From contig CAJCHQ010000592.1 in assembly GCA_903970295.1 (NCBI GenBank), forward strand, positions 1-5,079: DNA of 5,079 nucleotides. The letters are read 5' to 3'. This stretch comes from Bryobacterales bacterium. Its GTDB lineage: Bacteria; Cyanobacteriota; Vampirovibrionia; Obscuribacterales; Obscuribacteraceae. A program made the translations under genes and the position numbers. Each line of letters begins with the position of its first letter. The stretch's first letter is position 1. Positions 1,069-4,749 of the stretch are shown piece by piece. The notes beneath the pieces were generated by a model. The model saw only the letters and a program-made list of their open reading frames with translations, was not told where the DNA came from and ran no database searches.

Positions 1069-1445
1069 ATGTCCATGGTTTCGGCTTTGCTCTTTGGCGC
1101 AGCCACCCCTTGCAGCAAACCACTATTGGTACATATCAGTCCACTACAGCTGGCCGGCTTGATGTACTTAGGTTCCGCCATCGCCATGGCACCCTCCTTT
1201 TTTCAAATTGGGAATAAATTGCCATGGCAACTGGATTCAAAAAATAAAAAGCTCCTCGCCACCTCGCTCTTTTTGGGAGGAACATTAGCGCCTGCGCTCA
1301 TGTCTGGACTGCAACTCGCCAAAGCTGGCTCGGTATCGATTTGGCTAAATCTCGAACTCGTTTTTACTACGATCATCGCCTGCATTTTTTTGGTGAGCAT
1401 TTGAGCAAACATGGCTCACGCACGAGCACGAACATACTTCAATGA
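1069..1445 (+). pseudogene. DMT/EamA-family permease remnant, truncated and frameshifted
   Basis: The 111-residue frame from 1069 to 1404 matches the first EamA domain of drug/metabolite-transporter permeases. It has SALLFGAATPCSK in helix 1, SPLQLAGLMYLGSAIAM in helix 2, a polar loop, then LLATSLFLGGTLAPALMSGL and a segment resembling SVSIWLNLELVFTTIIA. Family members usually have about 280-310 residues in two EamA repeats; only the first is present. The frame fails in T7 (1385-1391). Adding one T would give FFGEHLSKH, which fits the conserved 'fxEhl' motif after this helix, but the shifted frame stops at 1443-1445. No second EamA repeat is visible in any frame after that. I infer a decayed gene. 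A sequencing error could explain the frameshift but not the missing second half. The exact start is uncertain; ATG 1075 and upstream in-frame codons are alternatives. Confidence 0.7.
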
Positions 1446-2825: not shown

Positions 2826-3926
2826 GTGAAAAGACGACTTCCGGCTTTACTGACCGCCCTGCTAAGCCTCACGATCGTTTCTGTGCAAGCAGCGCCACTG
2901 CTGGTGCCAGGCAACGTTAATCACGATCGAACCAACCAGCTAACGAGCGAAATTCAATGGAACACCTCGCTTTATCAGGCTGAACGAACGGCGGCTCAAC
3001 GGGGGAAATTGGTGTTCTGGATGCACATGCTGGGTTCGCTCAGCGGCGCTACCTGAAGTGCCGGCAATAGCCTGAGAGCCGTGTCGCTCTCGCAAGACCC
3101 TGCTCTGTCGGCTCTCAAGCAATCATTCGTTTGCGGCTACAAAGATATCTCGAATGAGCCTTACGCTGGCGCCTCAGGCTTGCACGAAAAAGATGGCAAA
3201 GCCATTAACACAACAAATGGCGCTGGTCCGCACAACATCCAGATGTTCATCCTAGCGGCCGACGGCACGGTGCTGACTTGCTTGCCTGGCTTCTGGAATC
3301 CCCAGGACCTGGTCACCGAGATGGAGCTTGCCGAACAGCTCAACACCGTCTGGACGAATCCTCGTTTGACGCGCGCGCAAAAAGATCAAACTTTTCGCCA
3401 AATGCACCTGGCGCATATCCAGGAGCATTCACCCGCAATGGTTCGCCGCAGCCATATGCAAGGCTTCGACCAGAAATACGAAGCCGAGCACAGGCTAAAT
3501 CATTCAGACACGATTCGCAATCGGAATGTCGTGGCCATGGCTCTCGATTCCGGAGCGAAATTGCCGCAGAATGCCTTCAAAACCACCGACGAGATTTTTC
3601 ACGAACGGATGGCGAGAAGACCATTCGAGTCATATGAACACTTCGACGTAGCTGCCTTCGCCGATTACGGCAAACCAAAGTATGACAAACAAGAAGATGC
3701 ACGCGACTCCTACGGGCAAGTCGATAAAATGGCTGCCCGAAATGCGCCGACGATCGGCAATGCCCAGGCTGCGTACCCGATGGGCCGGCGCCGCATGCAA
3801 GTTCCGGAAAACAACCCTAATGCCTGGGGCAATAACAATAATGCCTGGGGTACGAACACCAATGCCTGGGGCACCAACCGCAATGCCTGGGGCACCAACC
3901 CGAATGGCTGGGGAAGCGGACGCTGA
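2826..3926 (+). CDS. Exported thioredoxin-like protein with in-frame TGA at codon 77: candidate selenoprotein (or nonsense-mutated gene)
   Basis: Read through the TGA, this is a 366-residue protein. Residues 1-22 are a signal peptide (basic MKRR, hydrophobic core, VQA before the predicted cut), so it acts outside the cytoplasm. A thioredoxin-like domain follows: EIQWNTSLYQAERTAAQRGK, then strand KLVFWM (61-66), a loop HMLGSLSGAT, the TGA at residue 77, and a helix region continuing SAGNSLRAVSLSQDPALSALKQSFV. A later strand MFILAADGTVLTCLPGFW (140-157) resembles the beta-hairpin of such folds. The TGA occupies the place of the N-terminal active-site Cys; the position three residues on is Gly80, so no CxxC partner is adjacent. 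Cys103 and Cys152 are the other cysteines. Residues 329-363 are five Asn/Trp/Gly heptads. A SECIS-like hairpin follows the TGA. Restart at GTG 3081 would lose the signal peptide and half the fold, and it has no well-spaced ribosome binding site. The frame is certain; recoding is inferred. Confidence 0.72.
3054..3056 (+). other. In-frame TGA: candidate selenocysteine codon (residue 77)
   Basis: TGA is one base from TGC or TGT (Cys) and falls at the expected active-site position of a thioredoxin-like fold. The same frame stays open for 76 codons before and 289 after, with continuous domain logic across it. TGA is also the true terminal stop of this gene (3924-3926) and of both complete minus-strand genes, so general reassignment of TGA is unlikely. 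The choice is between Sec insertion and a nonsense mutation. Confidence 0.55.
3073..3092 (+). promoter_or_regulatory. Candidate bacterial SECIS hairpin
   Basis: GAGAGC (3074-3079) and GCTCTC (3086-3091) form a perfect 6-bp stem closed below by a U-G pair (3073/3092). The 6-nt loop is CGTGTC. There are 23 nt between the TGA and the loop, and G is the second loop base. The published bSECIS model asks for an upper stem of 4-16 bp, a loop of 3-14 nt, a G in the first two loop bases and 16-37 nt from UGA to loop; all are met. Binding by SelB is inferred and not shown. Confidence 0.5.
3810..3914 (+). repeat. Five tandem 21-bp units encoding a Trp-containing heptapeptide
   Basis: The C-terminus of the thioredoxin-like protein is five copies of a seven-residue unit: NNPNAWG, NNNNAWG, TNTNAWG, TNRNAWG, TNPNGWG. 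SGR and the stop follow. Copies differ at several positions, including synonymous changes, so the array is not newly made. Such Asn/Gly/Trp tails are flexible; surface or peptidoglycan binding is possible but not shown. Confidence 0.9.
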
Positions 3927-4191: not shown

Positions 4192-4749
4192 TCACAGTGA
4201 GGGAATGCCGTGAACGGCGATTAGCATCCGGGTCATCGCACCGGCGTCGTCATTGACGGCAAACGCAGATGCGGGCAAAGCCGCACAGCGAATCAGGATA
4301 ATTTGTCTGCAATCTTTTTCGTTGACCAACACCGCTCCGAGCTTGGAGAGGATGCCAGTGTACTGGTTTAGATCTGCCGGGAAAGTTGTCAAACCACCAA
4401 CGATTTCAATGTTGCCCGCGGCAGCAGTCGGTGTGGTTACCAGCGGGTTATCGTCGCCGATGCAAACGATGCCGCTTAGCAAATTCGCAAGAGCAGCCTC
4501 AGCCCCGAACATGTTTCTAAGCGCTTCGGTCAACGCAATGCTGAGATTTCTCGACCGCCCTTGACTGGTGCGTCGGCTGATGCTGTAAACAGGATGCGTT
4601 TGCACAAACTTCTTATCACCCACATCCAGGGTACTACCGAGAACTAGGGGCTCAGGAGTTTCGGACAAGCGCTTACACAGAAGCGGTTCATTCTTGGCAC
4701 GCCAAAATACAACTGTTCCGTGAGCGTGGCTAACTCTGCTAGTTGCCAT
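4192..4749 (-). CDS. Unrecognised 185-residue protein
   Basis: I do not recognise this protein. The start ATG 4749 is preceded by AGAGG with a 6-nt gap (4756-4760), a good ribosome binding site. There is no signal peptide. The N-terminal 60 residues contain beta-like stretches (HGTVVFW, PLVLGSTLDVGDKKFV, PVYSISRR). A helix follows at about 67-95 (RNLSIALTEALRNMFGAEAALANLLSG), then a Gly/Thr/Ala-rich segment VCIGDDNPLVTTPTAAAGNI. A C-terminal half of mixed strands and helices ends in HGIPSL. Cys25, Cys96, Cys147 and Cys155 are spread out with no obvious motif. The frame is convergent with the thioredoxin-like gene and follows a partial minus-strand frame by 149 nt, enough room for its own promoter. 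The intact length, start signal and amino-acid composition support a real gene; a function cannot be given. Confidence 0.68.
   Translation of the reverse strand: MATSRVSHAHGTVVFWRAKNEPLLCKRLSETPEPLVLGSTLDVGDKKFVQTHPVYSISRRTSQGRSRNLSIALTEALRNMFGAEAALANLLSGIVCIGDDNPLVTTPTAAAGNIEIVGGLTTFPADLNQYTGILSKLGAVLVNEKDCRQIILIRCAALPASAFAVNDDAGAMTRMLIAVHGIPSL

Follow-up and report, generated by a model that had tools for sequence, protein, structure and literature searches.

The 5,079-nt stretch of DNA analyzed here, referred to as the window, carries at positions 2826–3926 of the plus strand a gene which is best explained, as a whole, as coding for an exported thioredoxin-fold selenoprotein of an undescribed family, probably with selenol-dependent activity; we estimate the probability of this reading at about 0.94. 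An exported, selenocysteine (Sec)-containing thioredoxin-like protein had been proposed in an original prediction made from the DNA, and this proposal is supported by the conservation of an internal TGA codon, by Cys homologues, and by a structure model.

Gene structure and reading frame

Translation of the frame 2826–3926 (+) yields 366 residues, with a GTG start codon, a terminal TGA, and a single internal TGA at codon 77 (3054–3056), in agreement with the original prediction of one TGA at residue 77 within a 366-codon frame. Homologous genes share this layout. A GAGG resembling a ribosome binding site was recognized by eye at 2815–2818, upstream of the GTG start. In a mechanical ORF list, the frame appears as an upstream part of 78 aa, starting from a TTG at 2820, and a downstream ORF of 281 aa (3081–3926, plus strand), which is what a gene caller would report. 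The GTG of the 281-aa ORF is the GUG in the loop of the SECIS hairpin described below, and its assignment as a start codon therefore is probably an annotation artefact. The read-through protein did not match any Pfam or NCBIfam model at E values up to 1, and no Rfam model reached its gathering score in the window.

The claim that TGA terminates three genes in the window holds for the selenoprotein gene; for the other two it is right insofar as the ORFs in question, 1654–2526 (290 aa) and 4192–4749 (185 aa), both on the minus strand and with their stop codons visible as TCA at 1654–1656 and 4192–4194 of the plus strand, represent genes, neither of them having a Pfam match over the cut-off. Within the 290-aa ORF, the sequence GGAATCTGCGTCGGC is repeated twice in tandem (1846–1875). 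Positions 1069–1404 (+) encode a 111-aa piece of an EamA-family transporter (Pfam E value of 1.2e-9), apparently only part of a permease.

Conservation of the internal TGA

A protein search retrieved 592 homologues; the 120 listed are mostly about 270 aa long, are mostly called “hypothetical protein”, and bear names which include Candidatus Obscuribacterales and Chroococcales. Ten of the eleven annotated homologues examined start just past the TGA, at an (M/V)SLS sequence that corresponds to the GTG of the SECIS loop. When residues 1–110 were used as protein query, 281 candidates shared words with it and none matched.

At the nucleotide level, TGA occupies the column in each of eight loci (L001–L008) from seven near relatives. 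Among the 53 genomes searched in the order of genome G001, 41 contain the family, with exactly one internal TGA in 100 of 109 match rows and in 87 of the 92 strongest rows; the other five of the latter comprise three with a TGA and another stop codon, one with two TGAs, and one (L073) with none. We infer that the host genomes of this order are of the Obscuribacterales type, and label them as such. Obscuribacterales-type bacteria are non-photosynthetic kin of the cyanobacteria. In the phylum of G001 (292 genomes), 13 genomes matched, namely G001 itself and twelve with weak matches devoid of the TGA. In the Planctomycetota, the phylum of genome G007 (392 genomes), there were matches in 56 genomes; those that are strong and full-length contain one TGA, whereas several of the weak ones contain none.

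Part of these matches, 158 loci of which 14 are sel or tRNA-Sec places, was taken for alignment together with the window, giving 159 sequences. Column 77 is covered in 145 aligned sequences, which have TGA (118), TGC or TGT (14), AGT or AGC (12), or TTG (1) at this position. Removal of duplicates, i.e., of places fetched twice, left 132 sequences: 105 main-family genes with TGA, 13 paralogues with TGA one codon further on, and 14 without TGA here, which are twelve cyanobacterial sequences, L073 (with Cys), and L106. The latter, a frayed copy from genome G030 which is interrupted by a TGA and a TAA and retains a disrupted remnant of the hairpin, apparently is a decaying gene and was excluded from the 105. 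At least 105 distinct main-family TGA genes from Obscuribacterales-type genomes and Planctomycetota were thus present in the sequences taken, with up to six family copies per genome. The homologues have TGA or Cys at column 77, the outcome which the original prediction had looked for, and the pattern which would have spoken against it, Cys in siblings and no TGA elsewhere in the family, was not observed; the TGA is conserved across the family.

The open frame of the 105 genes extends over a median of 93 codons before the TGA (minimum of 71) and 268 codons after it (minimum of 142), and ends with TAA in 40, TAG in 36, and TGA in 22 genes, while seven run past the end of the sequence. From 34 close pairs that are not independent of each other, pN/pS was estimated at 0.19 over the 40 codons ahead of the TGA and at 0.11 over 40 codons following the hairpin. 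Both sides of the TGA thus appear to be under purifying selection and to evolve as protein; with frames open and pN/pS low on either side, coding character continues across the TGA, as originally proposed.

The SECIS hairpin

The strongest single piece of evidence, which was absent from the original prediction, is a bacterial SECIS hairpin at 3074–3091 (+). The UGA is followed by 17 nt and then by GAGAGC-CGUGUC-GCUCUC, with a 6-nt apical loop (3080–3085) at a UGA-to-loop distance of 23 nt. The loop has G at its second place, followed by U, the stem comprises 6–7 bp, and a 24-nt piece has a folding energy of –9.7 kcal/mol. Published constraints for bSECIS elements are a loop of 3–9 nt with G in the first two positions, a stem of 4–16 bp, a distance of 16–37 nt from the UGA, and a minimum free energy of at most –7.5 (PMC13188914), and the hairpin of the window falls within all four.

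Over the 105 main-family genes, the mean folding energy of the element is –9.2 kcal/mol, whereas 1260 equally long pieces from other parts of the genes average –3.2 kcal/mol. In a set of 108 distinct hairpin sequences (96 from the main family and 12 from paralogues), a stem of at least 6 bp was observed in 98, versus 9.7 expected when codons were redrawn synonymously; the other ten have stems of 5 bp (seven) or 4 bp (L142, L093, and L094). Pair cells are paired in 94.0% of cases over the 108 sequences, as opposed to 33.6–66.7% with the partner slid. Compensatory changes occur at pair 25–34 (G-C to A-U in twelve sequences), pair 26–33 (C-G to G-C in two), and pair 22–37 (A-U to C-G in one). However, cells changed on both sides number 15 in the proposed structure versus 21 and 19 when the partner is slid by –2 and –1, respectively, and by covariation counts alone the proposed structure is not the best. 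Some lineages combine a shifted pairing register with a change of the protein, examples being AAGGGA-CGUG-UCCCUU in L067 and UGAGGAC-GGAC-GUCCUCA in L138. Arg84 is encoded by AGA or AGG in 101 of the 105 genes, as compared to 427 of the 2038 Arg codons at other positions of the frames analyzed, a set that takes in 70 codons upstream of each TGA, a few of them possibly located ahead of the start codon.

A covariance model of the element, built from many of the same sequences against which it was searched, has its sole match in the window at 3054–3095 (E value of 6e-17). In 14 genomes it gave 38 matches with E values below 1e-3, 37 of which are located at places known from the protein searches; the one place absent from the protein-query finds is G333:C430:6150–6191 (E value of 4.7e-7). 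No match under an E value of 0.4 was obtained in three genomes that carry the Cys form seen in cyanobacteria.

Selenocysteine machinery

In the seven genomes holding L001–L008, tRNA-Sec, SelA, and SelD were each found over the cut-off in all seven and SelB in six, G005 being the exception. Within the order of G001, tRNA-Sec was detected in 38 of the 41 genomes with the family and in four of the twelve without it (Fisher p of 7e-5, which is generous because the genomes are related); SelA exceeded the cut-off in 38 of the 53 genomes (33 of 41 with the family, 5 of 12 without). The family-bearing genomes of the order without detected tRNA-Sec are G042, G044, and G049, and SelA did not exceed the cut-off in eight of the 41; G042 and G044 are without both. 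In the Planctomycetota, tRNA-Sec was detected in 25 of 30 genomes with the TGA gene, leaving five without, and in 15 of 20 genomes lacking the family, the latter being the first ones listed and not a random draw; therefore, its presence does not discriminate within this phylum. Assembly gaps may be the reason why tRNA-Sec, SelA, or SelB are missing from genomes with a TGA gene. None of the twelve genomes with the cyanobacterial Cys form was found to contain tRNA-Sec.

Among 14 control genomes, a tRNA-Sec match passed the gathering score in five and an E value of 1e-9 in three, and the gathering cut-off alone is therefore lenient; the matches used here scored 62–81 bits, second copies excepted. 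SelA exceeded the cut-off in one control genome, and SelB and SelD in two each. The SelD gene of the planctomycetal genome G007 (G007:C37:2833–3759) itself contains one in-frame TGA, and its product is therefore probably a selenoprotein as well.

Protein architecture and predicted fold

The putative signal peptide (residues ~1–24; 2826–2897, plus strand) was recognized by eye from a KRR sequence, a hydrophobic run, and VQAAP, consistent with the leader which the original prediction had placed ahead of the TGA; the mean pLDDT of the structure model is 53–54 over residues 1–20. It is followed by a thioredoxin-like domain (residues ~37–178; 2934–3359), assigned from a block with pLDDT values of 88–99 and from its structural neighbours. 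The model adopts a thioredoxin fold in which residue 77 opens the first active-site helix, supporting the original placement of this residue at the active site of a thioredoxin-like domain. It also bears out the argument that the downstream part alone is inadequate, as this part would lose the leader and the first strand of the predicted fold. The active-site motif is of the UxxG type, without a second Cys; elsewhere in the protein, C103 and C152 are present in 83 and 93 of the 105 main-family genes, respectively. The conserved, mostly helical C-terminal domain (residues ~179–318; 3360–3779) matches no known family, and its comparison with the PDB gave no match. The repeat tail rich in Asn, Trp, and Gly that had been described earlier was found as Asn/Ala/Trp/Gly repeats (NAWGxN; 3816–3923), which are predicted to be disordered (pLDDT below 50 for residues 333–366).

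Sec/Cys exchange and paralogues

The motif around the Sec codon of the window gene is GATUSAGNSLRAVSLS. Two main-family homologues, L073 and P0101, have Cys in the Sec column. L073 combines a TGT codon with a decayed hairpin, as if Sec had been lost. A paralogous group of 13 loci from the order of G001 (L093–L105) has adjacent Cys and Sec residues in an (F/R)-CU-TNARLARTV-like motif, and its hairpin, typically GAGAAC-CGUGYU-GUUCUC, lies at the same distance from its own TGA as in the main family. Other genomes in the phylum of G001 encode twelve proteins (L143–L154), each about 430 aa long, which have LSC-ANSRFFRVA and possess neither the TGA nor such a hairpin. The relatives of L147 bear the names of Anabaena, Nostoc, Fischerella, and their kin, i.e., of photosynthetic cyanobacteria, and we infer the same affiliation for the other eleven genomes of the Cys-form group.

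Sec/Cys exchange at the UGA column thus was observed, with the register between the groups uncertain by one residue, because the MAFFT alignment places the paralogue U together with the cyanobacterial Cys one column past the main-family U (CU in the 13 paralogues, SC in the twelve cyanobacterial relatives), whereas the hairpin distance points to the same residue. The Cys homologues L073, P0101, and L143–L154 have the same domain, with Cys either replacing Sec or located one column on, but lack the TGA.

Relation to known families

The structural neighbours of the model are thioredoxin domains of the DsbD C-terminal, DsbH, AGR3, and 3ira types, with 8–16% sequence identity, and include the Thioredoxin_7/Thioredox_DsbH group; in contrast to these domains, the window protein has Sec in its motif and no second Cys. 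No convincing sequence match to the window protein was found among PDB chains. The window protein does not match Thioredoxin_7 or Thioredox_DsbH in Pfam, and sub-cut-off matches to this group were obtained with L104, L138, L141, L143, and L147, but not with L118 or P0101. Sec-containing thioredoxins (PF00085) have UxxC, whereas the window family has UxxG or UxxA, a leader, and an extra C-terminal domain; the window protein with its USAG motif, devoid of a second Cys, had no match to PF00085 at E values up to 1. The same holds for peroxiredoxins (TxxU) and glutathione peroxidases; in the window protein, T directly adjoins U instead of forming TxxU.

A 2026 review catalogues 119 prokaryotic selenoprotein families and subfamilies (PMC13188914); the catalogue has no TUSAG entry and lists no thioredoxin-like family as UxxG, and its main text does not mention Cyanobacteria, Melainabacteria, or Planctomycetes. 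The new selenoprotein families of PMC12013277 stem from other organisms, as judged from its Table 3. A full-text literature search for selenocysteine combined with Obscuribacter did not find a paper.

Other candidate selenoprotein genes were observed in the phylum of G007. L195, L198, L200, L202, and L204 (and L199, by tally only) code for DsbH/thioredoxin-like proteins with two in-frame TGAs in an FRU(V/I)PUxxC motif and possibly form a double-Sec family. L208, from genome G190, has ATWUGPC, a motif of the Sec-thioredoxin type.

Alternative explanations

A recent nonsense mutation, the competing reading considered in the original prediction, would have turned a Cys or other codon into TGA and the gene into a pseudogene; the apparently incomplete EamA-family permease nearby could be adduced for it. 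Since 105 distinct genes from two phyla share this TGA, the explanation is refuted; purifying selection on both sides of the codon and the conserved hairpin likewise speak against it, and we consider its probability negligible. If UGA coded for an ordinary amino acid throughout the genome, the frame would likewise be open, but such a reassignment is hard to credit: TGA terminates 22 of the 105 family genes, including the window gene, as well as two further ORFs of the window; the SelA, SelB, and SelD matches over the cut-off in the relatives are free of internal stops, except for the single TGA in SelD of G007; and nearly all family genes have just one UGA, located at the active-site column and ahead of the hairpin.

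The UGA might instead be a regulated stop, followed by re-initiation at the GUG of the loop, so that two proteins are made and the 281-aa product is the working one. An in-frame GTG start codon in the loop and the annotation of database homologues from that point are in keeping with this model. It is nonetheless very unlikely, given that L073 and P0101 read straight through, that the 281-aa part is devoid of the leader and the first strand of the predicted fold, that the GUG lies inside a stem-loop with no ribosome binding site recognizable by eye, and that the Sec machinery tracks the family within the order. Somewhat less remote, albeit still improbable, is a divergent form of the known VPGUxxT thioredoxin-like selenoprotein family, which borders on the DsbH/Thioredoxin_7 group and, like the window family, has Sec behind the first strand of its thioredoxin-like domain. 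In a planctomycetal genome, a VPGU gene (L190) was found in which Sec is similarly placed after the first strand as judged by eye, and the CU paralogue L104 showed weak matches, all below the cut-off, to NF041382 (E value of 7e-4), NF041383 (3e-3), and Pfam Thioredox_DsbH (4.5e-4). However, L104 scored 18.9 bits against a VPGUxxT model cut-off of 350, the window protein matched neither NF041382 nor NF041383 at E values up to 1, and NF041382 missed the main-family genes of G007, G135, G333, G001, G003, and G022 at an E value of 1e-3. Moreover, the window family has GATUSAGNSLR (with the core TUSAG) in place of VPGU and more residues separating the strand from Sec.

Proposed mechanism and significance

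In the preferred reading, that of an exported selenoprotein, the ribosome would decode the UGA at 3054–3056 as selenocysteine because SelB carrying Sec-tRNA-Sec would bind the hairpin at 3074–3091, as suggested by conservation, by agreement with the SECIS criteria, and by the sel genes of the relatives. The product would be exported by virtue of its putative leader and is predicted to fold into a thioredoxin-like domain, with Sec77 opening the first active-site helix; a conserved helical domain and a tail predicted to be disordered follow towards the C terminus. Judging from the fold and the position of Sec, it most likely works in the cell envelope as a reductase of the thiol-disulfide or peroxide type, dependent on the selenol of a single Sec in a UxxG motif that has no partner Cys; this Sec might be regenerated by an external reductant or by a different Cys whose conservation is not strict. 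No conserved neighbour genes were found around the family members.

As judged from the sequences, the family, which is undescribed in the literature searched, occurs in multiple copies in Obscuribacterales-type bacteria, and some Planctomycetota have it as well. In a wider scenario, to which we give about even odds, Obscuribacterales-type bacteria would run an envelope selenium redox system for which a genome provides up to six paralogues of this Sec protein, alongside a second, related family with Cys-Sec. The proteins would go back to an ancestor in common with photosynthetic cyanobacteria, where Cys versions persist, and gene transfer or common descent would have brought the Sec gene to the Planctomycetota, or from them.

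The analysis adds a strongly supported, multi-copy selenoprotein family from two phyla which has been hidden by annotation, the databases recording its members mostly as headless fragments, which in ten of the eleven cases examined start within the SECIS loop. It provides a SECIS element for which compensatory changes can be seen among the members of a family, indicates Sec use in Obscuribacterales-type bacteria, and makes the function of an exported, single-Sec enzyme with a thioredoxin fold a testable question.
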